Shown: piece by piece, positions 24,366-45,836 of the stretch
Position numbering within the stretch: position 1 is the stretch's first letter
Layout of the letters: every line of letters begins with the position of its first letter
IMG/VR virus record: IMGVR_UViG_3300027973_000032
Coordinates: 46,289 to 110,288 of that record
Length of the DNA: 64,000 nucleotides
From: a virus
Strand: one strand, 5' to 3'
Translations under genes and position numbers: made by a program
Notes under the pieces: model-generated
The model's input: only the letters and a program-made list of their open reading frames with translations
What the model was told of the DNA's origin: nothing
Database searches by the model: none

Positions 24366-25313
24366 TTAAACGTTAATTTCAATGTGTTTGACAGGATCCC
24401 ATTTATAATCCCATACTCTTTGTGTTGTATGATATAGTACTGCGCCAATGCTGCTACTTGGATCTCCTGGATTTGGCAAGCTCCATCTATACTTAAACAA
24501 TGGTTCAACTACAGATTTATTAGCCTTGCTATTCATAGCACATCCTCCCATATAAACTAAACAATCTGTATTAGTAAGTTGTTTTGCTGTGGTCATTACC
24601 ATTTTAACTTGCTCTTCAAATACCTGTTGTACTGCGGCTGCCAAATCGCATTGTTCTTCTAATGTTGTTAATTCATTATGTTCCCAACGCAATACTCCTC
24701 GATGAAAGTTTGTATTAGAGTTCAATACACTAGCATTAAAGTAACTTCTTACATACTGTAAGAATTTAGATGGGCTGCCTCGCTCTGCCATTTGTTGTAG
24801 TAAATATTCATCTTTGATCGGAGTTAATCCTACAAATTTTGTGAATGCACTGTAGAACAATCCAAGACTATGTGGATAACTTCGACGCCATACCTTTGTC
24901 ATTTTGCCTTGAGCACATTTCCATATGGTAGCACATTCAAATTCTCCAATTGCATCTAATACAACTACTGCACAATTATCGAAGGGGCTAGTATAATAGC
25001 CTGCGGCAGCGTGGCTACCATGATGTGGAGTATAAGTCACAGGAACATAATTAAACTGTGTTAGATGGCGTTTAGGCAATACCTGCATGTCCAATGCTGT
25101 TGAATATTGGCCAGCATAGAATTGCCTTGCTTTTTTAAGCCAAGGTCTTTCGTACCAAAAAATACGATTGGGCTGACCATGGGCCAATGCTGAATTATAT
25201 AGAGTACTATCTATGTAATCCAAAGTACTTGTAGTCTGTGACAGTAGTTTTCCCTCTTTAAACACAGCAAGACTACTGCCGTGATTAAGAGCGTTTATGC
25301 CCCAGTTAATCAT
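24366..25313 (-). CDS. carbamoyltransferase-like protein (Kae1-like domain only)
   Basis: A 315-residue protein. It starts GINALNHGSSLAVFKEGKL, the ASKHA fold of NodU/CmcH carbamoyltransferases, has the metal-binding PHHGSHAAAGYY motif, VLDAIGEF, and near the C-terminus VYMGGCAMNSKANK and GDPSSSIGA. Bacterial members are about 550-600 residues; the C-terminal carbamoyl-phosphate domain is missing here. It may still activate a carbamoyl group, act with another subunit, or be a short phage form. Likely target: a sugar or modified base. It is coupled (ATGA) to the tiny gene upstream and lies between helicase and primase. Confidence 0.7.
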   Translation of the reverse strand: MINWGINALNHGSSLAVFKEGKLLSQTTSTLDYIDSTLYNSALAHGQPNRIFWYERPWLKKARQFYAGQYSTALDMQVLPKRHLTQFNYVPVTYTPHHGSHAAAGYYTSPFDNCAVVVLDAIGEFECATIWKCAQGKMTKVWRRSYPHSLGLFYSAFTKFVGLTPIKDEYLLQQMAERGSPSKFLQYVRSYFNASVLNSNTNFHRGVLRWEHNELTTLEEQCDLAAAVQQVFEEQVKMVMTTAKQLTNTDCLVYMGGCAMNSKANKSVVEPLFKYRWSLPNPGDPSSSIGAVLYHTTQRVWDYKWDPVKHIEINV

Positions 25314-30218: not shown

Positions 30219-31688
30219 TTATTTTTGCCAATCTATCTTTTCTAAAGAGAAAGGATATTGTGCGTCCTTATAAAATTTTTTGCGTTCTGTGAGATGACGT
30301 TTGGCAAATTTGCAAGTGCTGGTAATATCCCAAATTTTCACAAAGTCTTTGTCTTCGGCTCTTCTAATTCCTCTTCCAATGCTTTGAATAACTCGGACAA
30401 AACTTTTTCCTGGTTCCAAAAGGACCAGATTAAAAATCCTGGGTATATTAATCCCAACGGCAGCAACGCCATAAGTGGCCACGATAATTTTGTTGTCACT
30501 TGTTTTAATTTCGTCATATTCTTCTTTCCTATCTTTGGTCTTTACTTCGCCTGAAATAAACACACTGTCTTCGATTTCATTTACTATAAATTTGCCTGAG
30601 TCTATTCTGTTTACTAATACTAGTGTGTTGCCTGAGTCTGCTATTTGTTTGATTAATTTACTTACGAAGATCATTCTGTCTTCATCTGTAACAAGATACT
30701 TTAATTCTTCTGCATATGTCCTAAATTCAGCCACATCCAACAATTGTGAAATGGTAACGTGGCAATTACTAAGCACACCTTTTTCCTGCAATTCATGTGC
30801 AGCAATGCCTCCAACTACTGGCCCAATTGATGCAAAAATCACTTCGCTTTCATGTTTGGCTTTGGGAACAGTACCAGTCAAACCCCAACGTATACAAGCA
30901 TTATTCAAGTTACGTGTCAGTAAGTTCTTTAGTACATCTGCTTTGGCCATGTGTACTTCGTCAACAATTACTGCTCTAACACCGTCTAAAAATTCAGCCA
31001 AAGTCAGTTGATCCTCTACTGCACCTTTGCTTTTTTTATCTAGTATATTGAGGCTTTGCCAAGTACAGATTGTATGAGTTTTGTTTAAATCTTTGCGATC
31101 ACCATAGTATACACCCACATCTAATCCTACGTTAATATAGTCTTCCTCTGTTTGTTCTACTAGGCTTTTGTTGGGAACAATAGTAATAGTTCTGCCATAT
31201 TGTTCACATAATTGACTCAATGTGGCAGTGGTAATTGTTTTGCCAGCGCCTGTGGCAATTTCCTGTAAACTATGTGGATTTTTTAAGAATGTATTAATTG
31301 CGTCAACTTGATAATCACGTAGTAAAATAGGCTGACCTGCCATTTGATGCCCTTCTGGCCATACTTTACCCTGATCTTTCCAATATGTTTCTGTTACAGG
31401 TTGAAAGTCAATGTTTATAGCTGTCCTGTTGTCATTGACGTCAGTAACTTCAATTTTCATCTCTTCCAGCAGTTCTAATATCTTTTCTATTTGATACAAG
31501 TAACCACTGCCGCCAATACTAAACATGCTAATTGAGCCGTCCCAGCGTCCTAATTTGTAACTGGGACGATGTCTTGCAGTGGGATCTTGAAATTTAAAAG
31601 TATTAGCCAACTTTCTTCGTGCTTCAATAGGAAGCCCTTCCAGTTTGATGTTTACTTCATCCTTAATGATTAATTTACATGATGTCAT
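30219..31688 (-). CDS. uvsW: UvsW-type SF2 helicase
   Basis: A 489-residue helicase. The N-terminal UvsW domain (1-100) has YKLGRWDGSISMF. Motor core: Q-like RDYQVDAINTF, Walker A ATGAGKT (about 145-151), DEVH box VDEVHMAK, the LTGTVPKA motif III and VIQSIGRGIRR motif VI. UvsW unwinds branched DNA and R-loops and drives the switch from origin to recombination-dependent replication in T4. ATG 31688 overlaps the upstream gene by 14 bases. Length close to T4 UvsW (about 500). Confidence 0.92.
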   Translation of the reverse strand: MTSCKLIIKDEVNIKLEGLPIEARRKLANTFKFQDPTARHRPSYKLGRWDGSISMFSIGGSGYLYQIEKILELLEEMKIEVTDVNDNRTAINIDFQPVTETYWKDQGKVWPEGHQMAGQPILLRDYQVDAINTFLKNPHSLQEIATGAGKTITTATLSQLCEQYGRTITIVPNKSLVEQTEEDYINVGLDVGVYYGDRKDLNKTHTICTWQSLNILDKKSKGAVEDQLTLAEFLDGVRAVIVDEVHMAKADVLKNLLTRNLNNACIRWGLTGTVPKAKHESEVIFASIGPVVGGIAAHELQEKGVLSNCHVTISQLLDVAEFRTYAEELKYLVTDEDRMIFVSKLIKQIADSGNTLVLVNRIDSGKFIVNEIEDSVFISGEVKTKDRKEEYDEIKTSDNKIIVATYGVAAVGINIPRIFNLVLLEPGKSFVRVIQSIGRGIRRAEDKDFVKIWDITSTCKFAKRHLTERKKFYKDAQYPFSLEKIDWQK

Positions 31689-33732: not shown

Positions 33733-34542
33733 TTGAAACTACCACCTTTATTAGGGGAATTCCCCCAAACTGATGTTTGTTTTTATGTAGCTGCCGATGA
33801 AACGTATTTTAATCAGCATGCCAAGCCTTTGATTGGCAGTATTAGGCAGTATTTTTCATATCCCATACACTTTCATTTATATAATCCTAGTGATGTGTCA
33901 AAAAAATGGTGTGGAGTCAATGATATCAGTTATAGTTATGAAGTTGTTGACATAAAAATTGTAGATCCAGCATTTGACATTTATCGCAACATGCCCACTG
34001 ATGTAGAATTACAGCGACGTCGCAGCAAAATGATCAAGCCTGGTGAAAATGTTGAAAAAATTCGTAATGAGTTGATAAAAACATATTATGCCTGTACTAG
34101 ATTTGTGAGATTGAGTGAATTATTGATCAAGCCTACTTATATTATTATGTTAGACACTGACAGTTTAGTTAGAAATAAGTTTTACTTATTAAGTAAGGAT
34201 TGTGACATTCATATCTATGAAAAAAATCATAGAAGCCATGTAAACTATACTCAACATTTAGCCAGTACTATATTTTATACTGGTACACAAGGTAGTTTTG
34301 ATTTAATTCAAGATCATGCTAGATTAATCTTAGAAGAATACGTTAAAGATACACTATATTGGTTTTTAGATCAAGAAACATTAGATGTAGCCATACAAAA
34401 GTATTCTAAACAGCCATTATCATTAAGTTTCGTAGACTTTGAAATGAAAGACGCCAGTAATATATGGTGTGCCAAAGGTCCTAGAAAGAATTTACCTGTT
34501 TGGTTGGGCGAAATCAAAAAGTACATGCCTATAAACATCTAA
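33733..34542 (+). CDS. GT-A glycosyltransferase-like protein, TTG start
   Basis: A 269-residue protein, the only plus-strand gene of the island. A DxD motif in YIIMLDTDSLVRN (about residues 136-148) follows a nucleotide-binding-type start (TDVCFYVAADETYFNQHAKP), as in GT8-like enzymes. The C-terminal DASNIWCAKGPRKNLPVWL is typical of phage-encoded members. No ATG fits the conserved N-terminus; TTG 33733 is the likely start, without a clear ribosome site. Its 3' end overlaps the convergent GatZ-like gene by 51 bases. Confidence 0.6.
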   Translation: MKLPPLLGEFPQTDVCFYVAADETYFNQHAKPLIGSIRQYFSYPIHFHLYNPSDVSKKWCGVNDISYSYEVVDIKIVDPAFDIYRNMPTDVELQRRRSKMIKPGENVEKIRNELIKTYYACTRFVRLSELLIKPTYIIMLDTDSLVRNKFYLLSKDCDIHIYEKNHRSHVNYTQHLASTIFYTGTQGSFDLIQDHARLILEEYVKDTLYWFLDQETLDVAIQKYSKQPLSLSFVDFEMKDASNIWCAKGPRKNLPVWLGEIKKYMPINI

Positions 34543-35517
34543 AACTGAAAATATTTCTTTTTTTAAATTAATTTTAAATTGATCTAAATTTATCAGATTT
34601 AGTAATTGTTTAGCTTGTGGTGAATTTAAAAAATAGTGACCACTCACTAATAATTTAGTTTCATCGTCATCTATATTTGAAGTGATCCATTTTTTCCATA
34701 CTTCTTTTTTAAGTACATATTCTTTAAAAATATTATATTCTATTTTAAAATATTTGCCTAAGTTCAGTAAATTTTTTGTATGAATTACACCTAATTGAGG
34801 GGCAATATTTAATGAATCTACCCCGGCTTGTTTACGCAAACTAATATTTGCTGCTGTTAAATAGTCAGCATTATGTTCTTTAAACAAAAAGTCATTAGAA
34901 TGAATAATATCAGCTAGTTTAGTGTTGTTTAATAAGGAAAAATTTCCTACTTGTTCATGTTTAGTAAGACTGCCAGTTCTTCCAACTAGGAATTTTATAT
35001 TAGATTTATATTTTTTACTAAACTCAATATCGTCATATATTTGATTAATATTTTCTTCTTCAGAAAGATTATCCTCGCTGCCAAATTCTAAAAATATTTC
35101 ATTATTCAATTTTAGAATGTGACTGATAAACTCATCTGCTATGATATATTTTTTTTCATCAGAAACTCTACTAGGGTCTATATGAATCAAATCAAAATCA
35201 TTTTTAATGTCAGATTCAATTGTGCTGATACAATTTTTTACAGCGTCTTCAATTGATAAGTTGTTATCAATATCTGCATAGTAAGGACCACAATGATCTC
35301 TACATATAAGTATCCTATTAGGATCATAGTTTATATTAGATTTGACAAAATTTACTAATTTTTCTGTAGTAAATGAATATCCAGTATAAGCGTCAACCTG
35401 ATTTCTACTGGCAATGATCATCATAGGGAAATTATTAACTTTGCTATATTCTAAGCAAATATCAACAATTTCTGGGCTCATAGGCCCTATACCTAATTTA
35501 AATTTGCTCAAGTCCAT
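34492..35517 (-). CDS. GatZ/KbaZ-like TIM-barrel protein
   Basis: A 341-residue protein. It opens GIGPMSPEIVDICLEYSK, FPMMIIASRNQVDAYTGYS and continues with ILICRDHCGPYY and FDLIHIDPSRVS. These are the conserved blocks of the GatZ/KbaZ family, called the non-catalytic subunit of tagatose-1,6-bisphosphate aldolase. FLVGRTGSLTKHEQVG and FKEHNADYLTA follow in family order. A GatY-type zinc aldolase partner is not visible in the window, so it probably acts alone in an unusual sugar pathway. It is last in a coupled six-gene set with phosphatase, dehydrogenase and nucleotidyltransferase. Confidence 0.72.
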   Translation of the reverse strand: MDLSKFKLGIGPMSPEIVDICLEYSKVNNFPMMIIASRNQVDAYTGYSFTTEKLVNFVKSNINYDPNRILICRDHCGPYYADIDNNLSIEDAVKNCISTIESDIKNDFDLIHIDPSRVSDEKKYIIADEFISHILKLNNEIFLEFGSEDNLSEEENINQIYDDIEFSKKYKSNIKFLVGRTGSLTKHEQVGNFSLLNNTKLADIIHSNDFLFKEHNADYLTAANISLRKQAGVDSLNIAPQLGVIHTKNLLNLGKYFKIEYNIFKEYVLKKEVWKKWITSNIDDDETKLLVSGHYFLNSPQAKQLLNLINLDQFKINLKKEIFSVLDVYRHVLFDFAQPNR

Positions 35518-35983
35518 TTATTACTTTTTCTAAATACAAACATGCATCTAAAACAGCACCCTCGCCTGCACGAGAGCATGTTACATATTTTGCTGCTTCT
35601 CTTGCTTCTATTCTTGCCGAAATTGGTGCTATACCAATTTTAACTCTTTTCAATATAGGCGCATCATTATACCCATCAGCTATGTATGCTGTAGTGTCAA
35701 AATTGCAGTTTTTTTCAAACCATCCCATACGATCCTCTTCTGTAACTAATAATAATTGCGAAGGATCATATTTCCAATCTTTTACAATTCGGGCATAAGT
35801 TATGTCCCAACCAGTTACATCTGCTGTAATAAAAGTAATATCATTCAAATATTTTTTTATTATTTTAAATCCATCTTTGTCATGTGGACCAAAGACTTTG
35901 AACATTTTTCCTTGACTGCTATATAAAATATGTCCAGTGTTAAGTACTCCGTCAACATCTAATACTAGTTTATTAATTATCAT
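35498..35983 (-). CDS. HAD phosphatase (KdsC-like)
   Basis: A 161-residue protein starting MIINKLVLDVDGVLNTGHIL. DVDGV (residues 9-13) gives the nucleophile and acid aspartates of HAD hydrolases; YIADGYNDAPILKRV is the third motif (GxxxND). Size and capless layout match KdsC, which dephosphorylates Kdo-8-phosphate. Motif 2 (usually a T/S in ITGR) reads FITADVTGW, so the substrate may differ. ATG 35983 preferred over an upstream TTG. It overlaps the AroE-like gene by 11 and the GatZ-like gene by 20 bases. Confidence 0.75.
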   Translation of the reverse strand: MIINKLVLDVDGVLNTGHILYSSQGKMFKVFGPHDKDGFKIIKKYLNDITFITADVTGWDITYARIVKDWKYDPSQLLLVTEEDRMGWFEKNCNFDTTAYIADGYNDAPILKRVKIGIAPISARIEAREAAKYVTCSRAGEGAVLDACLYLEKVINGLEQI

Positions 35984-36671
35984 CTTCAATTTCCAATTGA
36001 CTCAAAGTTATTCCAGTGTAAATTTCAAATTGTTTTTTAAATTGTTGTTGGTAAAACTCTTTTCCGCCTACATATTTAATACTAGATAATGTGGCCTGTT
36101 TTTTTAAATCATTTTCATTTATAGCCAAATCAATTATGTAATTTATTTTTGGCAATTTGGTAAAAGGACTGTCCTTGGTAGAAGTTCCCAAGCTTGTGCA
36201 GTTTATTACCGTTCCAGTTAATGAGTATATTTTATGCCAGTTGCCCAAGGAACGACTATAGACATTAGCTCGATTATTTAAAATCTTTTTGAACATATTT
36301 CCCATTGCACCGTTGCCTAATATATTAATAGGCTCATATTCTGGCACATTTTTCAATACATGTATTGCTCCATAATAATCAGTGTTATAACCAATATATT
36401 TTTGATCAATATTCACTACTGTATTACAGCTATTGAATTGTGTAACTAATTTATCTACTGAATCTAACAACGATATCACCGACGATTTATAAGGCATGCT
36501 TACACTAAATCCATTAATATTAGATTTTTTTAATTGAGTTACACTTTCAATTATATTTTCGCATGCTAAGGCATTATAAGTATATGGTAAATTTTTTAAA
36601 GTAAAAAACTTACGATAATAGTTTTCTCCTGTTTTGCCAGGATATCTACTTAAACTAACATAATTTTTCAA
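35973..36671 (-). CDS. shikimate-dehydrogenase-like (AroE fold) protein
   Basis: A 232-residue protein. It has SRYPGKTGENYYRKFF, GFSVSMPYK (54-62, catalytic Lys62), CNTVVN, GYNTDYYGA (94-102, catalytic Asp98), LGNGAMGNMF (118-127, nucleotide loop) and INCTSLGTS. These are the AroE landmarks in order, with both catalytic residues present. AroE proteins are about 270 residues; this one is slightly short. In this setting it more likely reduces or oxidises a sugar, cyclitol or polyol than shikimate. Confidence 0.75.
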   Translation of the reverse strand: MKNYVSLSRYPGKTGENYYRKFFTLKNLPYTYNALACENIIESVTQLKKSNINGFSVSMPYKSSVISLLDSVDKLVTQFNSCNTVVNIDQKYIGYNTDYYGAIHVLKNVPEYEPINILGNGAMGNMFKKILNNRANVYSRSLGNWHKIYSLTGTVINCTSLGTSTKDSPFTKLPKINYIIDLAINENDLKKQATLSSIKYVGGKEFYQQQFKKQFEIYTGITLSQLEIEDDN

Positions 36672-36672
36672 T

Positions 36673-37587
36673 TTACAATAAACTATGTTTAGTTATGTAT
36701 TCAGCTAGTTCTTTAGCCCAAATTGCATGTCCTTCAGGACTAGGGTGTATTCCAGTAATTGGGTCATCAATATTAGAATTTTCTATAAAAGATTTGAATG
36801 AGTTACTAGTCTGATTTTTGTTATAATATCTAATATCGTCAATTTCTGCCCAAAGATTTGAAAAATGAAATGGGGAAGCCTGTCTAACACCTAGATTTTT
36901 AGAATCAAAAAAGTTTGTATAACCCAACATAGAATTGTCTAGCTTTTTTAGCTCATCATGTAAATCTAAATCTGTCCAATTACTAATATGCCTTACACCG
37001 CCTTCTCGAATTGTCCCGTTTCCTTGATAAAATGCATTAAAGTGTAAAAATTTAATTCCATTTGATTTACAAAAATGTTCAAATGTGAGTAAATTGATTA
37101 TATGTCTCACTATATATTCTTCAGGATTCCAAAAATTCATAGCATAAATTTTCCAAAATTTATAAATGTCAGAATCCGTTGGGAAGCCAATACCATGCGG
37201 GCTAAGTCTATATATAAAACTTTCTGATGGATTTGTTGGATTTTTGTACCAAAATTCTCTACGCTCCGGGGTAGTCCAACCGTGTATTATCATCAAGTTA
37301 TCACTGGTAAAAGTTTTATTTTGTAATCCTTGAAGTACAAAATTTATAGTTCTATTTAAGATTGCATTGTTATCATCAGCTACTCTACCAATATTAATTG
37401 TTCGTACATTTAGTTCCCTAGACAAACAAGTTGGCCAAATTCTATCAACTCGATAACTATCATTTTCTATTAACAACTCAAGTTCCCAAACTGATTTTTC
37501 AGGGTATTTTGTAAAGAGCTCTGGTAGAAATATTTCAGAACCATATGTCCAACTGTCACCATTACAAATAATTACTTTATCATTCAT
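36673..37587 (-). CDS. SGNH/GDSL-type hydrolase
   Basis: A 304-residue protein. CNGDSWTYGSE (block I, nucleophile Ser12 in GDS), NIGRVADDNNAIL (block II-like), LMIIHGWTTPERREFWY (block III-like) and a C-terminal GIHPSPEGHAIWAKEL with the D/H dyad region of block V (here DPITGIHPS). SGNH enzymes in glycan loci add or remove acyl groups on sugars. Likely an O-acyl esterase or transferase acting on the island's product. It overlaps the nucleotidyltransferase-kinase by 8 bases. Confidence 0.7.
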   Translation of the reverse strand: MNDKVIICNGDSWTYGSEIFLPELFTKYPEKSVWELELLIENDSYRVDRIWPTCLSRELNVRTINIGRVADDNNAILNRTINFVLQGLQNKTFTSDNLMIIHGWTTPERREFWYKNPTNPSESFIYRLSPHGIGFPTDSDIYKFWKIYAMNFWNPEEYIVRHIINLLTFEHFCKSNGIKFLHFNAFYQGNGTIREGGVRHISNWTDLDLHDELKKLDNSMLGYTNFFDSKNLGVRQASPFHFSNLWAEIDDIRYYNKNQTSNSFKSFIENSNIDDPITGIHPSPEGHAIWAKELAEYITKHSLL

Positions 37588-39133
37588 ATTCTATTCCTTG
37601 AAATAATTTAATTCCTAAATACCATAAAAATAAATCAAAAGGTGCGGCATGTAGAGGACTCATGTTCCAATATATGATTGGGATTAGCGTTTGTACTTTT
37701 TTGTAATCGTATCCTTGATTTATTATAAATTCTTTAAGTTGTTTTTGATATATTGTAATTTGATCTACACTTGGGATAGATAAAGTAACATTATCATTGT
37801 CTATTTTAATATCAAAATTATGTTCTTTAATTTTAGAATAGTTAATTATTAATCCACCTGCTAATTTAGCTAGATCATAATAGATATCGCCAAACTCAAC
37901 TACATTACCAAATTCATGTCTCCAGTCTATTACTTTGAATTCACCGTCATTATTGATAATAGTATTATCAAAATGTAAATCACCATGAATGAAACCTGGC
38001 AATGTAGTATTGCTCAAATAGTCCCAATCAATCTTATCTAAATAATAGCCATAATCATTAACTTTTACTCCATCAATAAAATTAATTTGTTTGAGGTTTG
38101 GATATTTTTCTAAAAACTTATTGACTCGTGATAGAGTTTTATTTTTATAAAATTCAATCGATGCATTAGTAATATCTATGTCTACCAACAACCAAACATC
38201 ATCTTTTAACCAATTAAGATATGAAGCAAATATATTTGAATCATTACGTTCATATAATATTTTACCATCAAAATAATCATATGCCATAAAGTTACCAATA
38301 TGTTCACAATTGGATGGGAAAACTGAAGGATTTTTTAATGTTTTAATATATTTTTTCTTTGGAGTTGATGAATCTAGCCACCATTTAACTACACGATTAT
38401 TACAGATATAGGTTAATTCATTTTCTTTAGTGAAATCAAATTTTTGGCTTTTATTCAATTCAATTTGATAATTTATAGGATTACCAAAGTCCTGCCATGA
38501 GTTTAAATTGGCCACATTATCACCTAACTGTATCGAGTAAATTAATTCTTCAGAATTAATTTGTTCTAAACTATCAAAAAAATTCTTATACTCATGTATG
38601 TACATTAGCCCAGTAAAGGCCTTATTTGTATGCGGGGTATGTTGTTTAAATGTTATTTTACTAATTTTTTGATTGTCATCCACGTCAAACATAGTATACA
38701 AATGTGTGTCTTTTTCTAAAATTGTCTTTACAAAATAACAATTTTTATCTGTTACTTTATCAACAATTGATTCATTAAAATAAGTATCACAGGGTACGTA
38801 CCAAAATGGACCGTTTACCTTTTCTCTGCAATGTCGTAATGTATATGAAGTTCCAGATTTACTACTAACATAGTCATCTATTTGAACAAATTCAATATCT
38901 CGATTAGCATACGCTATTTTACAAAAGTCTTTAATTTGATCGGCCAAGAAACCAACTGGAATGATAAATTTAGCATCTACAGGAAATTGATCAATAATGT
39001 GTGATATGACTGGTTTAAATTTATAGGGCAGTAATGCTTTGTTAAGATTTTTTGTATAATTTTTCATTCTACTGCCCAATCCAGCAGTAGGTATAATAAC
39101 AATGCTATTCGTGCTCGTATCTAATTCTACCAT
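37580..39133 (-). CDS. nucleotidyltransferase-kinase fusion
   Basis: A 517-residue two-domain protein. N-terminal domain: IVIIPTAGLGSRMKNYTKNL and SGTSYTLRHC, a sugar-phosphate or phosphocholine-type nucleotidyltransferase. C-terminal domain: GFIHGDLHFDNTIIN (Brenner motif, catalytic Asp) and FKVIDWRHE (metal Asp), a choline/aminoglycoside-kinase fold. One polypeptide could phosphorylate a small alcohol or sugar and activate it with CTP or another NTP. I start at ATG 39133 because GAGG stands 8-11 bases upstream; an earlier ATG at 39172 would overlap the cupin by 68 bases. Confidence 0.78.
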   Translation of the reverse strand: MVELDTSTNSIVIIPTAGLGSRMKNYTKNLNKALLPYKFKPVISHIIDQFPVDAKFIIPVGFLADQIKDFCKIAYANRDIEFVQIDDYVSSKSGTSYTLRHCREKVNGPFWYVPCDTYFNESIVDKVTDKNCYFVKTILEKDTHLYTMFDVDDNQKISKITFKQHTPHTNKAFTGLMYIHEYKNFFDSLEQINSEELIYSIQLGDNVANLNSWQDFGNPINYQIELNKSQKFDFTKENELTYICNNRVVKWWLDSSTPKKKYIKTLKNPSVFPSNCEHIGNFMAYDYFDGKILYERNDSNIFASYLNWLKDDVWLLVDIDITNASIEFYKNKTLSRVNKFLEKYPNLKQINFIDGVKVNDYGYYLDKIDWDYLSNTTLPGFIHGDLHFDNTIINNDGEFKVIDWRHEFGNVVEFGDIYYDLAKLAGGLIINYSKIKEHNFDIKIDNDNVTLSIPSVDQITIYQKQLKEFIINQGYDYKKVQTLIPIIYWNMSPLHAAPFDLFLWYLGIKLFQGIEYE

Positions 39134-39545
39134 GCGTTCTACCTCGATCATCTTGTAATCTAAAAACATCATCTAGCTCAGGAGAACTCATCTCGATAAA
39201 TTCTAAGTCTGTATTTGAATTTGCTATAACACGATGTACATATCCTGGGAATATATGAAAAACTATGCCAGGACTGAGCAGTATTATATCAAATGTTTTT
39301 TCATATTCTTCCACTTCATTGGCAGGCATACCTTTTTCTAAAAAAGTTGATATATCAAATACCTGTTTACTGCGACGTAAAATCCCAGTGCCATTTAATA
39401 CATAACTAGTTTCTATTTTATGCTGATGTACTTGAAGACTAGTTCGATGTCCGGCCAAAAATAATATTTTTTTACCAGCGTATGGGGTACTTGTACCATC
39501 AGCTATCCATAATTCTTCACCCCAGTGTTTTTTTACAATTTTCAT
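39105..39545 (-). CDS. cupin, mannose-6-phosphate-isomerase-like
   Basis: A 146-residue protein (MKIVKKHWGEELWIADGTST). A single cupin barrel with HRTSLQVHQHKIETSYVL (motif 1: H-x-H, E) and FHIFPGYVHRVIA (motif 2: P and H). SSPELDDVFRLQDDRGR is a signature of type II phosphomannose isomerase-like cupins found in sugar clusters. It may isomerise a phosphosugar or bind one. ATG 39545 chosen over an upstream start; a TATAAATA box lies six bases upstream but would give a leaderless RNA, so I do not count it as a promoter. Confidence 0.72.
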   Translation of the reverse strand: MKIVKKHWGEELWIADGTSTPYAGKKILFLAGHRTSLQVHQHKIETSYVLNGTGILRRSKQVFDISTFLEKGMPANEVEEYEKTFDIILLSPGIVFHIFPGYVHRVIANSNTDLEFIEMSSPELDDVFRLQDDRGRTHGRIRYEHE

Positions 39546-39559
39546 ATTTTTATTTATAG

Positions 39560-40357
39560 CTATCCTGGTCCTTGCCAAATAAAGGGGGGATCACTGCCAT
39601 AGTATTGTTGTTCACAATCGTAACACTCTTTAAAATTTAATGGATCAAGGTGTTTGCATTCTTCTCGAAATATTGAATATCCATTTTGATATTCAATAAT
39701 GTCATTTTTAATCTTTTTATATTTGATATTCATTAGTTTCATATAATCTATAAATTCTAATGTTTTAAAATCATTTTCTAACCAATATTTATACAAGTAA
39801 AACCAATATTCACTAGCTTTTAACATATTACTAGCACTAGCAACCCAAAATACATCATCGATTCTAGTATCAATTAAATTATCAACTAAAAATATTTCTT
39901 GATTTAAATTATATTGATTTATTGCATTTTTTAAACTTCTATAAGAAGGAAATATAACATCAGTTCTTAATTTTACCATTACATCATATTGTTGATACTC
40001 AGAAGCCATTAAGACACTTTTTTGCCACGAATAAAATAATGGGACCCAATTCCCCCCAATTGATAATTTTCCATGTTTAGCTTCTATGCTAGATAAACAT
40101 TCATTATAATTTTCAATTTCAATTTTTTTAGGCTGATATATCTGTTTAAGTTCTTCAAATCTTTCCATTGGGACTTGTGTGACTGGTCTAGGCTTAAAGG
40201 CTGTTGGACCCCAATGCTTACTTCGTAACTGCTCAATATCCCATGTGTGTATAAAAAAATCGCATTGGTCCCACAAATCTCCTATAAATCTTTTTAGATT
40301 AATAGATGATAATGTAGAAGTTCGAGTCTGACCACTAAAACATATTGCTATTTTCAT
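39560..40357 (-). CDS. CFSGQ-type glycosyltransferase-like protein 1
   Basis: A 265-residue protein beginning MKIAICFSGQTRTSTLSSIN, then CDFFIHTWDIEQLRSKHWG, and YDVMVKLRTDVIFPSYRSL in the middle. The ICFSGQxRT and xxKxRTDxxF blocks mark a family often found in marine viral and bacterial glycan loci and probably GT-A-like. It ends in a cysteine-bearing tail (EECKHLDPLNFKECYDC). ATGA overlap with protein 2. Acceptor unknown. Confidence 0.6.
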   Translation of the reverse strand: MKIAICFSGQTRTSTLSSINLKRFIGDLWDQCDFFIHTWDIEQLRSKHWGPTAFKPRPVTQVPMERFEELKQIYQPKKIEIENYNECLSSIEAKHGKLSIGGNWVPLFYSWQKSVLMASEYQQYDVMVKLRTDVIFPSYRSLKNAINQYNLNQEIFLVDNLIDTRIDDVFWVASASNMLKASEYWFYLYKYWLENDFKTLEFIDYMKLMNIKYKKIKNDIIEYQNGYSIFREECKHLDPLNFKECYDCEQQYYGSDPPFIWQGPG

Positions 40358-41028
40358 CTTAAATCTCTAGGTATAATATTTTTTATAGCCAGCCATTTCC
40401 AAACTAATGCTTTATAATGCATGTTCTTATAAGCGGAGTCATAATAATCTGATTTTAATATTTGATACAGTGCTCCGTTACTATAATATCTATGAAAATT
40501 ATTAACGACATCCATGGTCAATGAAGAACCAAAACAAAAGTCAGTATTAAATCTAGGAGTTTTGTAATCAGAATATTCTACACTATATTTCCCAAATACA
40601 CTATTAGGATAATTATCAATGCCTATATTTGTAATAGTATTAAATAATTCACCTTGACAATCAACGCTAAAATTAATATTTACTACAATATTGAATACTA
40701 TGTCATGATCTATTTCATATTTCCTTTTTAAGGTATTCACTTTCATCATACTATTAGTTATATCTGTATATTTGTCGGGTCTATTGTGTATTGCAGTTAC
40801 TTCAGTTAAACAACTTGGAACGGCGTTCAATTTAATATTCAAATCCGTATAATATTCATTATCTTTTATGACATAGGGTGTATCTATAATAGTAGATGTA
40901 AATCCATCATTATTAAATTCAGTATATGAATGAGCAAATAGGCAATAGTTGCTTACTTTAGGATAAAGTAAATTTCTCATATCCTTATAGTTAAATCCAT
41001 TACCAAATAAACAAATTGCTATATTCAT
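40354..41028 (-). CDS. CFSGQ-type glycosyltransferase-like protein 2 (diverged)
   Basis: A 224-residue protein (MNIAICLFGNGFNYKDMRNL), shorter and more diverged than its two neighbours: the SGQ is FGN and the R-x-D block is replaced by FNIVVNINFSVDCQ. It keeps the FCFGSSLTMDVVNNF region. The missing basic-acidic motif suggests loss of activity or another role, perhaps as a partner in a complex. ATGA overlaps on both sides. Confidence 0.5.
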   Translation of the reverse strand: MNIAICLFGNGFNYKDMRNLLYPKVSNYCLFAHSYTEFNNDGFTSTIIDTPYVIKDNEYYTDLNIKLNAVPSCLTEVTAIHNRPDKYTDITNSMMKVNTLKRKYEIDHDIVFNIVVNINFSVDCQGELFNTITNIGIDNYPNSVFGKYSVEYSDYKTPRFNTDFCFGSSLTMDVVNNFHRYYSNGALYQILKSDYYDSAYKNMHYKALVWKWLAIKNIIPRDLR

Positions 41029-41807
41029 ATGCTCGTATTTAATATTTCATTACCTTGAAGGAATCCCTTTCGTGCCATTGATTCAGCAGTAACTACGACT
41101 CTAGGATCAACGTTTGCAAAATCTAAATCTATCCCGATACTTTTTATATAATAATAAAAAATATATTCAGGAGGGGATCCTGGAATTAAATCTATTTCGT
41201 CTATAAATCTTAATGCATCAATAAACCAACTAATTTGATCAAATGTAAAACTATCACAATGATAATATACATCGCCTATTGCATATTTGTCTAATTCCTT
41301 AGAAAATCTTCTATGTATAGTATACACTGTGTTAGGTTTTACTTTGTCAATAGTTGGTCTGCTCTCAAATATAGAATCAGGACGCATACGAATAACAATA
41401 TCATATTCAAAATTATTTTCTAATTCATACTGTCTTTTTAAATTCGCCGATTTCATTAAACTATAAAATTGATTTCGATGCCAAGGTATTAATCTATTGG
41501 CTACTTTTTTTGAATACCAATTTTCTAAATTTGGCAAAACTTGAACATCGCCCCATATCTTTTTAGATCCAAATTCAATTTTTTTAGGCTTTAATGAATC
41601 TATTATAGTTTGTTTTTCATCAGCAGTTAATAATACATCCTCTGGAATTTTATCATATCCATTTTTAGATCCTTCAGGAACTGAGTTATAATCCCAAAAA
41701 TGGCAGAAATAATCAACATCCCCAAGCGGGGTTAAATTATCTATCCAATTTTGATAACAATATTTCCAAGTTCTTACTTGGCCACTAAAACATACTGCTA
41801 TTTTCAT
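41025..41807 (-). CDS. CFSGQ-type glycosyltransferase-like protein 3
   Basis: A 260-residue protein, the best preserved of the three: MKIAVCFSGQVRTWKYCYQN, VDYFCHFWDYN, YDIVIRMRPDSIFESRPTID and YHCDSFTFDQISWFIDAL. The RMRPDS block resembles the DxD-equivalent segment of related transferases. ATG 41807 forms an ATGA overlap with the SGNH gene; an earlier ATG lies three codons upstream. Probably transfers a sugar to the island's product. Confidence 0.6.
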   Translation of the reverse strand: MKIAVCFSGQVRTWKYCYQNWIDNLTPLGDVDYFCHFWDYNSVPEGSKNGYDKIPEDVLLTADEKQTIIDSLKPKKIEFGSKKIWGDVQVLPNLENWYSKKVANRLIPWHRNQFYSLMKSANLKRQYELENNFEYDIVIRMRPDSIFESRPTIDKVKPNTVYTIHRRFSKELDKYAIGDVYYHCDSFTFDQISWFIDALRFIDEIDLIPGSPPEYIFYYYIKSIGIDLDFANVDPRVVVTAESMARKGFLQGNEILNTSI

Positions 41808-42781
41808 TTTTTCCATTTTTCGAGTAGCTCTTGAAAGTACTGTTTTTTGACTAAATGATCATAAATTTGTTCAGAAAAATTGAAATGAGAGTTAGGTCCC
41901 CAATGCAGTGCATCACGAGCAATTTCATATGGAAATTTTTTTTTATAAATACCTGGATAAAATCTATCAAACTCTTTGTCAAATACTAGTGAACCTGGGA
42001 TATAGTGATCTTGCAATTCGTACGGAATGGATGTATCTAGATTTAAATTTCCTTCAACGGCATTAGAAATCATATCTGAGTTGAATTCACCATTCCAAAA
42101 AGCAAATGCCCAATTAATTTGCTCAGTCATTAAAAAATATTTCAAAAACAATAAATTTTTAAAAGCTGAGTTATAACTATCTCTATAATTAAGCATGCCT
42201 AATAATGCTGAATGAGTTCGTTTTAGCTCAACGAATGCATCATTTGGGGGAGTATAGTTATGTATAAAATTAAAAGTTGTCATCCTATTTAAGGGTTTAC
42301 AATCTAGTATTACTTCTTTTCGCGTAACTCCTGGCATCATAAAAAAAACAAAATCAGGTTTAAAATTATTTTTAATTGTTAGATATGTGTATCTAACCAT
42401 TGAATCAATTGCGTGACCTCCACGTGATACATTATATAGGTTTATTGGTTTTCCTATTTCTTTTGAAATTTGATCATTTAAAAAACTAGCCCAAATATGT
42501 TCTATTGGAAGACCAGTTCCCTCGGTTACTGAACACCCCACGTACAATATTTTAATAGGATCATGATTGTCAAATTCAGATGATCTAAAACCTAAAGAAT
42601 TAAATTTATAAACAAATTCGTCTTTACCATAAGTTTTAATATTTTTTTTTATATTTTGAGCCCATGCTTCCTCATTGTCCGCCCCAGAAGAGTTAAAAGT
42701 TTTATTTCGAAGAGTATATTCATGATAATTCATGCCAGTATCCAGTGTATCCCATAAATTAATTACATTAAGCATACTCAT
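41804..42781 (-). CDS. second SGNH-like hydrolase
   Basis: A 325-residue protein. ILYVGCSVTEGTGLP is a GDS variant (GCS, nucleophile Ser), NVSRGGHAIDSMVRY is block II (Gly), DFVFFMMPGVTRKEV takes the place of block III (usually GxNx), and RDALHWGPNSHFNFSEQIYD carries the D-x-x-H dyad of block V. A second acyl-handling enzyme in the island, with the radical SAM genes upstream. The Asp-to-Cys change in the nucleophile motif is unusual but tolerated, since the Ser remains. Confidence 0.6.
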   Translation of the reverse strand: MSMLNVINLWDTLDTGMNYHEYTLRNKTFNSSGADNEEAWAQNIKKNIKTYGKDEFVYKFNSLGFRSSEFDNHDPIKILYVGCSVTEGTGLPIEHIWASFLNDQISKEIGKPINLYNVSRGGHAIDSMVRYTYLTIKNNFKPDFVFFMMPGVTRKEVILDCKPLNRMTTFNFIHNYTPPNDAFVELKRTHSALLGMLNYRDSYNSAFKNLLFLKYFLMTEQINWAFAFWNGEFNSDMISNAVEGNLNLDTSIPYELQDHYIPGSLVFDKEFDRFYPGIYKKKFPYEIARDALHWGPNSHFNFSEQIYDHLVKKQYFQELLEKWKK

Positions 42782-42785
42782 TTTA

Positions 42786-44372
42786 TTAGATATTTCCTTT
42801 TTTTTCTATGGGATTTTGGTATCCTTCTATTGGTTTAACATAGTTTTTACTACCTGGATTTGGATGAGTTGGTTTTAAAATCCATTTTTCTTGATTTGCC
42901 TTTTCTATTAATTGTTCTAGATGACTTGATTCCAATACGCTGTCTCCACTAATTAATTTTATTAATGGAGCAATATTAGTTTCAGGAATAGAATCATACC
43001 ATTCTGAAAGTTCTGGAAAAACTTTTTTAAAATCCTTACCTCTTCTTTGATCATATTGCATGAAAAAACTTTTAAAATCTCTTTGTCTAGATTCTAAACT
43101 ACTAGTATGGTTATGCCCTACATTCAATTCTCGAAGATAGGATACAAGCCTTTTGATCCCTTCATATTCCATTTGATTTATAAGTCGATTGCCTTGTAAA
43201 TCTACATTTTCTTGTCCACTCCATTTAGCATCAATCCAAGTTTCTATTTTATTAGATAGTTCAACTCTTATATTTTCTGGTAATACTAATGGACTCATAA
43301 AACTAGGAAAACGTAATATATTAAAACTCATATGACAATGATCACGCCCATATTGACGTCGAATAGACAACATTTCTTCCATGAATTCCACAATACTAAA
43401 AAGACATAGAGCATTGATAGTCATCATGATATGTGTAGATTTACATTTTCCCTTAGAAATCATCATACGTAAATTATCTAGCCAAACAGACCAATCTAAC
43501 CCGTCTCTAATATATTCTGCTTGATTGCCAAAGCATTCATTACTGGTATATAAACGAAAATTTTTAAAACTATGTGTAGATTTGCATAATCTTTCAATAA
43601 GCTGTTGTTTGGCTCCTAAATTGCTATTAACTGCCAATCCAACATCACATTCAGGATGCTGTTCCCACCAATCTATTAATCGCCAAAAATCTTGGCTCAT
43701 GGTGGCCTCGCCGCCAGTAATTCTTAATTCACGTAGGCTATGTTGTAAATCACCTTCCCACCATTTCCAAAATGCAGCTATGTATGGATTATCTAAGTTT
43801 TTGATTCCATAAGGCTGAGCCCAAGTACCATCCTGTTGATATGCCCCTCCGCCATCGCTAACTAAGTTTTGATAAAAGCCATGAGTTTTGATGTCAGTCA
43901 TCCAAGTAGTGCTAAAACTAGGATTACAATAGCTACAGGCAAAATTACAATTAGCATCAAACGCTATTTCCAAAGTCTTTAAATCTACATCTAAGTTACT
44001 GCCAAAAATATTTTTAGCATCTTGTAATTCCTGCTCTGTGTAAAGTAAACTTTTATAAACACGATCACTAACCTTATCCTCGCCCAACCCCTCAATTTTC
44101 CAACAATAATCACATTCTTCGGGTTTCTTACCTTGAAGCATTTGCTCTCTCATTAATTTTTTATATTTGGTATTATGTAATGCTTTTGGGTTATCCCTTA
44201 ATTCTTCTAAAGGTATTTTATGTGAAGGTGGATGATGGCAACTAGTTGTTGTGCCACTTCCTAACCAGATAGTTGCATTATACCATTTAGCCCCACAAAA
44301 ACCAGGGCCTATAGAATTTAATACTCTATCTCTATATTCTACGTTACTTTCGTTATTTGGTTTATGCATCAT
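42786..44372 (-). CDS. twitch-domain radical SAM protein 1
   Basis: A 528-residue protein. The cluster motif is CNFACSYC (C142, C146, C149; CxxxCxxC), followed by a RITGGEATMSQDFWRL block (GGE, SAM binding) and a helical C-terminal part. Four N-terminal cysteines (26, 45, 87, 90; in FCGAKW, SCHH and CDYCW) look like a SPASM/twitch auxiliary cluster placed before the barrel. Such proteins occur in marine phages; their substrate is unknown. In this island, radical chemistry on a sugar or a peptide is plausible. Starts at one of two ATGs. Confidence 0.72.
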   Translation of the reverse strand: MMHKPNNESNVEYRDRVLNSIGPGFCGAKWYNATIWLGSGTTTSCHHPPSHKIPLEELRDNPKALHNTKYKKLMREQMLQGKKPEECDYCWKIEGLGEDKVSDRVYKSLLYTEQELQDAKNIFGSNLDVDLKTLEIAFDANCNFACSYCNPSFSTTWMTDIKTHGFYQNLVSDGGGAYQQDGTWAQPYGIKNLDNPYIAAFWKWWEGDLQHSLRELRITGGEATMSQDFWRLIDWWEQHPECDVGLAVNSNLGAKQQLIERLCKSTHSFKNFRLYTSNECFGNQAEYIRDGLDWSVWLDNLRMMISKGKCKSTHIMMTINALCLFSIVEFMEEMLSIRRQYGRDHCHMSFNILRFPSFMSPLVLPENIRVELSNKIETWIDAKWSGQENVDLQGNRLINQMEYEGIKRLVSYLRELNVGHNHTSSLESRQRDFKSFFMQYDQRRGKDFKKVFPELSEWYDSIPETNIAPLIKLISGDSVLESSHLEQLIEKANQEKWILKPTHPNPGSKNYVKPIEGYQNPIEKKGNI

Positions 44373-44381
44373 AATTAATTC

Positions 44382-45836
44382 CTAGTAAGGTCCTTGTGTT
44401 TGCCACTTTTTAGTATACATTTTACATTTCTGATAAAAATCAGCTAATTCTGGAAAAGTTTCTTTAAAATTAGTGCCGCGGCGTCGATCATATTCTGTGA
44501 TATATTCTGCAAATTGTGCTCTTAATGGATCAATCCTAGAAGGATCAGAATGGTTTCTTATCATTTCATCCCTCACAGTATAAAATACACGCTCAATTCT
44601 ATTTACTTCGTAATCAAAGAAGCCTTTACCACAAAGTGGTGGCCAATTTAGTTGATGAAGATTTTTAAACATATGGGTAACTACGTCTTCAAGCATGGGC
44701 AAAAATTTGACATCAGCGACCCATGGTGCTAAAAACTCAGGCCAACGAATATAAGGTACATCCAATGATACTGGATTTTTACGAATAGGTTGTTGAGTAT
44801 ATTGACATTTCATATCAATGATATCATTCATCAATAATTTAAAACTGGGCAAACTAAGAATATTGTAAGCAGCCATAATTGTTAATTGACTATCAGGAAT
44901 TTCAGATAATACGCGATGACAATTTTTTAACCATTGATCATAATTTAATCCAAATCTAATATATTCAGCCTGTTTGCCGTGTGCTTCATTACTGGTATAA
45001 ATTTTAAACTTTCGTATTGCTTTTTTTTCTTGAACAATTTTCATCTTATCAATAAATTTGTTCATAATCTCCAGAGGAACATCAAGATTAGTATTAATAT
45101 TAAATTCTAAATTTGGTTGAGGATTATCGATTAAATGATCCAATACTCTAAATACTTGTTTACTTAATAATGGCTCTCCACCTGTAATTCTAAAAACATG
45201 TAAATCTTTAACAAGATCAGGCCACCATTTCCAAAAAGCTTCCATGTATGGATTGTGATGTGATACTGGAATTGGCATCGAGCCCTTTTCTTTTAAATAA
45301 TCTAAACTATGCATTGTCATATTTGTCAAATTATAAGGACCATGCTGTTCTATTTCTTGACGCCAAGTAGAAGAAAAAGTTGGTGAACAATAAGCACACT
45401 TAAAATTACATACAGTATCAAATGATACTTCTAGATATGTAGGGTTGACGTCGAAATCCCAAGGTTTAGATTGAATTTGTTCTAGATATGGTCTAGCCCA
45501 AGGCTCAGCACTTTTTGTAATTCTGTCACTAAAAACAACATTTTCATTAATATTTGTTTGAGCATCCTCTACTCTCCAACAATAATTACATTCAACAGGT
45601 CGTTGGCCTTCCATCATCTGTTTTCTTAATAATTTTTTATGTAAAGTGTTATGTAAAGCAGTATGATTTTCTTCTACTTCTTCTATAGGTATTTTATGTG
45701 GTGCTGGATGATGACAACTATGCGTTAACCCTGCTCCTAGATGAAGTGTAACTTGATTCCATTTAGCTAGACAAAAACTAGGACTAGTTTTATCAAGTGA
45801 TTCCTTTGTTTGTCTAAATGCTTCAAAATTATCCAT
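44382..45836 (-). CDS. twitch-domain radical SAM protein 2
   Basis: A 484-residue paralogue of the adjacent gene. Cluster motif CNFKCAYC (C143, C147, C150), FRITGGEPLLSKQVFRVL (GGE), and the same N-terminal cysteine set (C22, C41, C83, C86: FCLAKW, SCHHP, CNYCW). Both end in a YDRRRGTNFKETFPELADFY-type segment, so the duplication covers the full length. Two intact copies side by side argue for different substrates or a heterodimer. Confidence 0.72.
   Translation of the reverse strand: MDNFEAFRQTKESLDKTSPSFCLAKWNQVTLHLGAGLTHSCHHPAPHKIPIEEVEENHTALHNTLHKKLLRKQMMEGQRPVECNYCWRVEDAQTNINENVVFSDRITKSAEPWARPYLEQIQSKPWDFDVNPTYLEVSFDTVCNFKCAYCSPTFSSTWRQEIEQHGPYNLTNMTMHSLDYLKEKGSMPIPVSHHNPYMEAFWKWWPDLVKDLHVFRITGGEPLLSKQVFRVLDHLIDNPQPNLEFNINTNLDVPLEIMNKFIDKMKIVQEKKAIRKFKIYTSNEAHGKQAEYIRFGLNYDQWLKNCHRVLSEIPDSQLTIMAAYNILSLPSFKLLMNDIIDMKCQYTQQPIRKNPVSLDVPYIRWPEFLAPWVADVKFLPMLEDVVTHMFKNLHQLNWPPLCGKGFFDYEVNRIERVFYTVRDEMIRNHSDPSRIDPLRAQFAEYITEYDRRRGTNFKETFPELADFYQKCKMYTKKWQTQGPY

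Follow-up and report, generated by a model that had tools for sequence, protein, structure and literature searches.

A phage gene cassette predicted to supply nearby glycosyltransferases with an unusual nucleotide-activated sugar

The GDP-/ADP-D-glycero-manno-heptose pathway (GmhA, HddA/HldE, GmhB, HddC) consists of an isomerase, a C1 kinase, a HAD phosphatase and a nucleotidyltransferase. AmgK, the kinase of the MupP-AmgK-MurU system, is an anomeric kinase of the APH fold. In that system, which recycles N-acetylmuramic acid (MurNAc) in Pseudomonas, a HAD phosphatase strips the 6-phosphate, and the kinase and a nucleotidyltransferase rebuild the activated sugar (PMC5371407). Here, these routes and the cytidine diphosphate (CDP)-6-D-glucitol route of Campylobacter jejuni are compared with a block of six genes in a window of 64 kb (the whole stretch of DNA analysed) out of a 110,288-base IMG/VR virus record, IMGVR_UViG_3300027973_000032. 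Five of the six form a conserved cassette, which most likely makes an unusual nucleotide-activated sugar for the glycosyltransferases encoded next to it.

The cassette shares with MupP-AmgK-MurU the logic of phosphatase, then kinase, then nucleotidyltransferase, the last two being fused in the cassette; unlike the cassette, MupP-AmgK-MurU has no epimerase, isomerase or reductase, employs a phosphatase of another subfamily and acts on MurNAc. The cassette is also like the heptose pathway in the logic of its enzyme types, yet a cupin replaces GmhA, an APH-type kinase the GHMP/PfkB-type and a KdsC-type phosphatase the GmhB-type, and the cassette has a TIM barrel and a reductase beyond that set. 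The C. jejuni route is alike in deriving from fructose-6-phosphate, in using a nucleotidyltransferase and a reductase and in serving a surface polymer, but its enzymes are two, activation precedes reduction, and barrel, cupin, phosphatase and kinase are absent (PMC10918830). No characterised nucleotide-sugar pathway with the same gene set was found in the open-access literature, subscription journals lying outside the scope of the search, which agrees with an earlier note, made from the sequence of this DNA, in which no standard phage or bacterial route with this set was known.

The six open reading frames (ORFs) that the earlier note had placed at 34492-39545 are present, all on the minus strand, and the families that it had named agree with hidden Markov model (HMM) searches (Pfam, NCBIfam) and PDB profile matches (Table 1). 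Four of the five gene junctions overlap, and one base lies between the AroE-like and SGNH genes. Inspection of start codons indicated that the fusion gene, listed from 39172, could also start at an internal ATG at 39133, and that the cupin gene starts with the ATG at 39545, the mechanical ORF opening earlier, with a TTG at 39578.

Table 1. Genes of the cassette and adjoining transferase-like genes in the window
Feature and proposed role	Coordinates	Strand	Evidence
Cupin of the type II phosphomannose-isomerase kind; proposed sugar-phosphate isomerase	39105..39545	-	MannoseP_isomer, GMP_PMI
Fusion of nucleotidyltransferase (N-terminal) and APH-type kinase (C-terminal); proposed C1 kinase and NDP-sugar synthase (NDP, nucleoside diphosphate)	37580..39172	-	
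SGNH/GDSL hydrolase-like protein (DUF6071); accessory	36673..37587	-	HMM and motifs
Oxidoreductase of the shikimate-dehydrogenase superfamily, like HI0607 (SdhL); proposed redox step on a sugar(-phosphate)	35973..36671	-	
KdsC-type HAD phosphatase; proposed sugar-phosphate phosphatase	35498..35989	-	TIGR01670
TIM barrel of the GatZ/KbaZ-like kind; proposed epimerase of a ketose(-phosphate)	34492..35517	-	PF08013 and AlphaFold2 model
Member of a GT-A-type glycosyltransferase family (CxSGQxR...WD); outside the core, likely consumer	39560..40357	-	Family shared with 41025-41816
Divergent transferase-like protein; possible consumer	40354..41028	-	phmmer matches in other phage loci near the cassette; no Pfam match
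GT-A glycosyltransferase; likely consumer	41025..41816	-	AlphaFold2 model

A search with the barrel recovered 71 viral loci, which were annotated with profiles of the window genes; viral counts rest on the 31 loci that had full flanks after dereplication. All 31 keep cupin - fusion - AroE - (KdsC) - GatZ in this order, KdsC being present in 13, and barrel identity among phages with this fixed order goes down to 41%. Conservation of gene order in dozens of such divergent phages rules out chance. In phylogenetic trees, 24 phage barrels cluster together, as do 24 phage fusion proteins. That the genes belong to no common pathway and are separate auxiliary genes piled up in a hypervariable surface-glycan island would suit the location of the cassette in a transferase island and its G+C content (29%, against 37% over the whole window), but is very improbable given the fixed order and membership across phages, the recurrence in many cellular phyla and the clustering of phage barrels and phage fusion genes. 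From linkage and families, it is highly probable that the five genes other than that for the SGNH protein together encode a single pathway, whose end product is a sugar-like compound activated by a nucleotide. The earlier note had taken all six as one unit, and this stands for the five, supported by the order in the viral loci and by the cellular sets. The SGNH protein (a DUF6071 match at 6e-14, a weaker one to GDSL, and the motifs GDSW and HPSPEGH) is encoded close to the cassette in 24 of the 31 viral loci. It was rejected as a core member on account of its shifting position and of its family having zero cellular members.

Cellular relatives were retrieved from a genome collection with the barrel alignment, yielding 27 good ones plus more distant ones. 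Carriers include Woesearchaeota, Pacearchaeota and other DPANN, many lineages of the candidate phyla radiation (CPR), Omnitrophota, Planctomycetota and Pelagibacteraceae (Pelagibacter). The barrel is rare in the archaeal phylum of locus L082, occurring in 3 of its 237 genomes. Beside the barrel, the 26 dereplicated cellular loci encode the fusion protein (25), the cupin (20), KdsC (17) and AroE (7), counts to which some cut contigs contribute. The earlier note had considered that the genes might not co-occur elsewhere; the core genes do so, in other phages as well as in cells. An AroE gene is found in 8 cellular loci, a short-chain dehydrogenase (SDR) gene in 8 (an archaeal SDR gene lies at L097:9971-10705) and both together in none, a lack of overlap with a rough chance of 0.017 among 24 loci if these are assumed to be independent. 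Also, no AroE-like match was recovered genome-wide from 7 SDR-type genomes, which are possibly incomplete. Such mutual exclusion is expected if both enzymes perform the same redox step.

GatZ and KbaZ, long labelled aldolase chaperones, are C4-epimerases that convert fructose-6-phosphate to tagatose-6-phosphate, for which a zinc-dependent retro-aldol mechanism involving Asp87, His88, Glu171 and His257 has been proposed (PMC11907403). The barrel of the cassette matches the GatZ_KbaZ-like family (PF08013) at 2.1e-12, and an AlphaFold2 model built from 22 relatives (pLDDT 94.5) has E. coli GatZ (2fiq) as its closest solved fold, with a Z of 32.3 over 330 residues, followed by a relative from S. 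meliloti (3txv, Z 29.8), tagatose 4-epimerase (27.6) and UxaE (26); class II aldolases rank lower, with a Z of 23.5 or less. The likeness to GatZ/KbaZ covers the fold along its full length, the catalytic Asp and both metal His. In the numbering of 2fiq, which matches that of PMC11907403, catalytic Asp87 and metal-binding His88 and His257 correspond to D74, H75 and H215 of the barrel, invariant in 49 sequences (22 phage, 27 cellular), and candidates for the metal ligand Glu171 are E144, also invariant, and E148. Differences include an identity of about 17% in the structural alignment, the lack of a GatY/KbaY partner in the cassette and the biosynthetic context. Judged by model and sequence, the barrel is predicted to be an epimerase-like enzyme that belongs to a subfamily of its own. 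It falls in a retro-aldol superfamily, and KdsC-type phosphatases normally serve routes to 3-deoxy-D-manno-octulosonic acid (Kdo)-like or sialic-like ulosonic acids, in which case the barrel would be an aldol synthase, KdsC its cognate phosphatase and the resulting keto acid would be activated with cytidine monophosphate (CMP). Such a route appears quite improbable, since the barrel matches GatZ and epimerases best, and CMP-ulosonate routes have no need of a kinase-fused nucleotidyltransferase of the sugar-1-phosphate type.

The AroE-like protein matches Shikimate_dh_N (3e-12), and its best PDB profile match is HI0607 (1npy, 1.7e-36), with 5-ketofructose reductase (7cok, 1.7e-17) also matched; at 232 residues, it is shorter than both HI0607/SdhL and 5-ketofructose reductase. 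Lys and Asp, the two catalytic residues of AroE that the earlier note had recognised, are K62 and D98, invariant in 17 phage sequences, while all scores against the AroE equivalog fall below the cut-off (best 86.9 of 306 bits). Where it lies beside the L-sorbose operon, E. coli sdhL is presumably of the HI0607 type. This shikimate dehydrogenase-like gene adjoins that operon in some E. coli (PMC12817954), at most a hint toward ketose substrates. Among relatives of shikimate dehydrogenases, one is a 5-ketofructose reductase and another is inactive on that sugar (PMC7954740). The AroE superfamily normally handles cyclic polyols, so that a cyclitol or carbocyclic product has also to be weighed, with a cyclic polyol or something quinate-like as the substrate of the AroE-like enzyme and a cyclitol phosphate as that of the nucleotidyltransferase. 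Consistent with this, genes of the inositol-monophosphatase family lie near six cellular copies (L078, L084, L086, L091, L102 and L104), and the fusion profile also matches CTP:inositol-1-phosphate cytidylyltransferase. Such a product is nonetheless improbable: none of the recurrent neighbours was recognised as a cyclase, be it of the dehydroquinate-synthase or the inositol-phosphate-synthase type, and the N-terminal stretch, which in shikimate dehydrogenases holds the carboxylate-binding serines, reads PGKTG in the AroE-like protein, the local match to true shikimate dehydrogenase starting after it.

The cupin is recognised by Pfam MannoseP_isomer (8e-6) and NCBIfam GMP_PMI (8.5e-5), and residues Q37, H39, K42, E44 and H103 do not vary among 19 phage and cellular relatives; Q37, H39, E44 and H103 are taken to be the metal site QxH...E...H of type II phosphomannose isomerases. 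By sequence the protein belongs with these enzymes, and isomerase activity is predicted. The phosphatase matches the YrbI/KdsC subfamily of HAD proteins (TIGR01670, 1.4e-15) below the curated cut-off (57.5 of 107 bits) and fails the KdsC equivalog NF007019 (49.7 bits vs 208); its DxDG and C-terminal GAV motifs are invariant in 17 relatives, and its PDB profile matches are KdsC and related sugar-acid phosphatases. A SnoaL-like protein of ~110 residues is encoded between fusion and AroE in 14 of the 18 viral loci devoid of KdsC (examples are L017, L020, L021 and L026:6939-7277) and in 1 of the 13 that bear it.

The fusion protein combines a sugar nucleotidyltransferase (Arch_glmU, 5e-17) with an APH domain (3e-5), and its GxGxR and HGD...N / DW kinase motifs are invariant in 23 relatives. 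In the PDB, its profile matches RmlA best, the cytidylyltransferase LicC second and an enzyme of the 6-deoxy-heptose pathway third, a range that would not reveal nucleotide specificity; the use of CTP supposed in the earlier note is not borne out by these matches. The main rival to an NDP-sugar is an activated polyol: the barrel would make a ketose (phosphate), the AroE-like enzyme or SDR would reduce it to a hexitol, phosphatase and kinase would move the phosphate, and an NDP-polyol, e.g. a CDP-hexitol, would result. Ketose reduction is typical of SDRs. It has also been shown for an AroE relative (7cok; PMC7954740), LicC is the second-best match of the fusion, and Campylobacter does make CDP-6-D-glucitol from fructose-6-phosphate, but it manages with two enzymes and no phosphatase or kinase (PMC10918830). 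The polyol product proposed in the earlier note is conceivable but unlikely, as it leaves jobless and unexplained a phosphomannose-isomerase-type cupin that is encoded in 20 of the 26 cellular and 31 of the 31 viral loci.

For an NDP-aldose as the product, formed in the order of steps set out here, the probability is put at roughly 0.55. Starting from a common ketose phosphate, the GatZ-like barrel, as a metal-dependent ketose epimerase, would invert one carbon through retro-aldol/aldol chemistry; the AroE-like oxidoreductase, or the SDR in some cells, would change another carbon in its configuration or redox state; and the cupin would turn the ketose phosphate into an aldose phosphate. The KdsC-like phosphatase, substituted by a host enzyme in phages that lack it, would then take off the terminal phosphate, the APH-type kinase domain would phosphorylate C1, and the fused nucleotidyltransferase would yield the NDP form of a rare sugar, which adjoining GT-A glycosyltransferases would finally pass to the virion or host surface. 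Every substrate, the step order, the nucleotide and the acceptor are proposals built on the observed genes, families, catalytic residues, folds and linkage in phages and cells. The earlier note had placed the steps in another order; epimerase, reductase and isomerase acting before the phosphatase, and kinase and nucleotidyltransferase acting last, now appears more likely.

Several points weigh against this NDP-aldose scheme. The substrates of all its enzymes are inferred, and a pure isomerase route does not require a redox enzyme, the role given to the AroE-like protein in the second step being a guess. KdsC is absent from 18 of the 31 viral loci, with neither a second copy nor a replacement found in the stretches examined, and a profile search of the cupin against the PDB gave no solved relative. 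In the barrel, 26 of 27 cellular copies have D where the phages have E148, and all 49 relatives have I/V and N in place of the second-shell GatZ/KbaZ markers E44 and K279, the latter suggesting that the substrate or reaction of the barrel may differ from those of GatZ/KbaZ. Because of these replacements, and because the NCBIfam GatZ/KbaZ equivalog cut-offs are missed by far (29-39 bits vs 569-707), the barrel is regarded as a GatZ relative and not filed as GatZ. More tentative, falling somewhat short of even odds, is the broader proposal of an undescribed modular pathway to a rare, newly activated sugar in which AroE and SDR are interchangeable, which the phage encodes in full and which is common to large groups of uncultured tailed phages, CPR and DPANN.

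If the proposal is true, phages encode a whole activated-sugar pathway unlike any described, held in common with the reduced genomes of CPR and DPANN, about whose surface chemistry next to nothing is known. It would also assign a biosynthetic role to GatZ-type epimerases, offer biochemists five targets and a route to the substrate of the orphan HI0607/SdhL family, and provide a handle on the glycan islands of many aquatic phages, be it in virion glycosylation, receptor masking or superinfection exclusion.

As the earlier note had described, transferases surround the block, and glycosyltransferases are among them. The protein encoded at 41025-41816 has no Pfam match, but its AlphaFold2 model (pLDDT 81) has a GT-A fold, the top Foldseek and VIA-align structures all being nucleotide-sugar glycosyltransferases (Z about 12). 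In 45 viral and 4 cellular loci the cassette is found together with a gene of this family, and the adjoining position of this GT-A family supports the consumption of the activated sugar on the spot.

A conserved carbamoyltransferase of 490 residues is encoded near the barrel in 26 of the 31 dereplicated viral loci (e.g. L066:675-2147, after the barrel), which suggests a carbamoylated sugar in the phages carrying it. As a core member it was rejected, the 490-residue ORF of the window at 30219 being a helicase; the sole carbamoyltransferase match found in the window is a 315-residue protein with the N-domain only (24366-25313), located between the DnaB helicase and Toprim primase genes. Genes of the C-methyltransferase kind, recognised by clustering and by eye, lie near the barrel in a subset of cellular loci (L079, L084, L094, L099), and a sugar C-methyltransferase-like gene (PF08484) does so in a viral locus (L060:3737-4876), hinting at branched-chain sugars. 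In Marine virus AG-345-E15 (L116, MH319741, 4553-12300), cupin, fusion and barrel genes occur with no AroE or KdsC in the stretch examined, and adjoin genes that resemble, by eye, HddA and HddC of the heptose pathway.

The surroundings of the cassette comprise unannotated transferase-like genes, replication genes (DnaB, Toprim, helicase) and virion/tail genes. The replication genes have their nearest relatives in giant phages, PA5oct and Atu_ph07 among them, with identities of about 50-56%, and a search for a close cultured phage of the window gave distant matches only. Gene direction flips near 22 kb of the window (1-22000 vs 22000-64000), and the transferase island has a G+C content of 29-32%, down from about 44%. 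A plus-strand transferase-like ORF (33733-34542), opposite to the direction of the island, shares 51 bases with the barrel gene in a tail-to-tail overlap. Also inside the island, two adjoining proteins with weak radical-SAM matches are encoded at 42786-45836, and other phages, too, repeatedly have genes close to the cassette that look radical-SAM-like by eye. Several records named Listeria phage LM 4-11-1 / 4-14-1 (OR846732, OR848100 and others) carry bacterial-looking GatZ-like and AroE-like genes and are possibly whole-sample contigs and not one phage.

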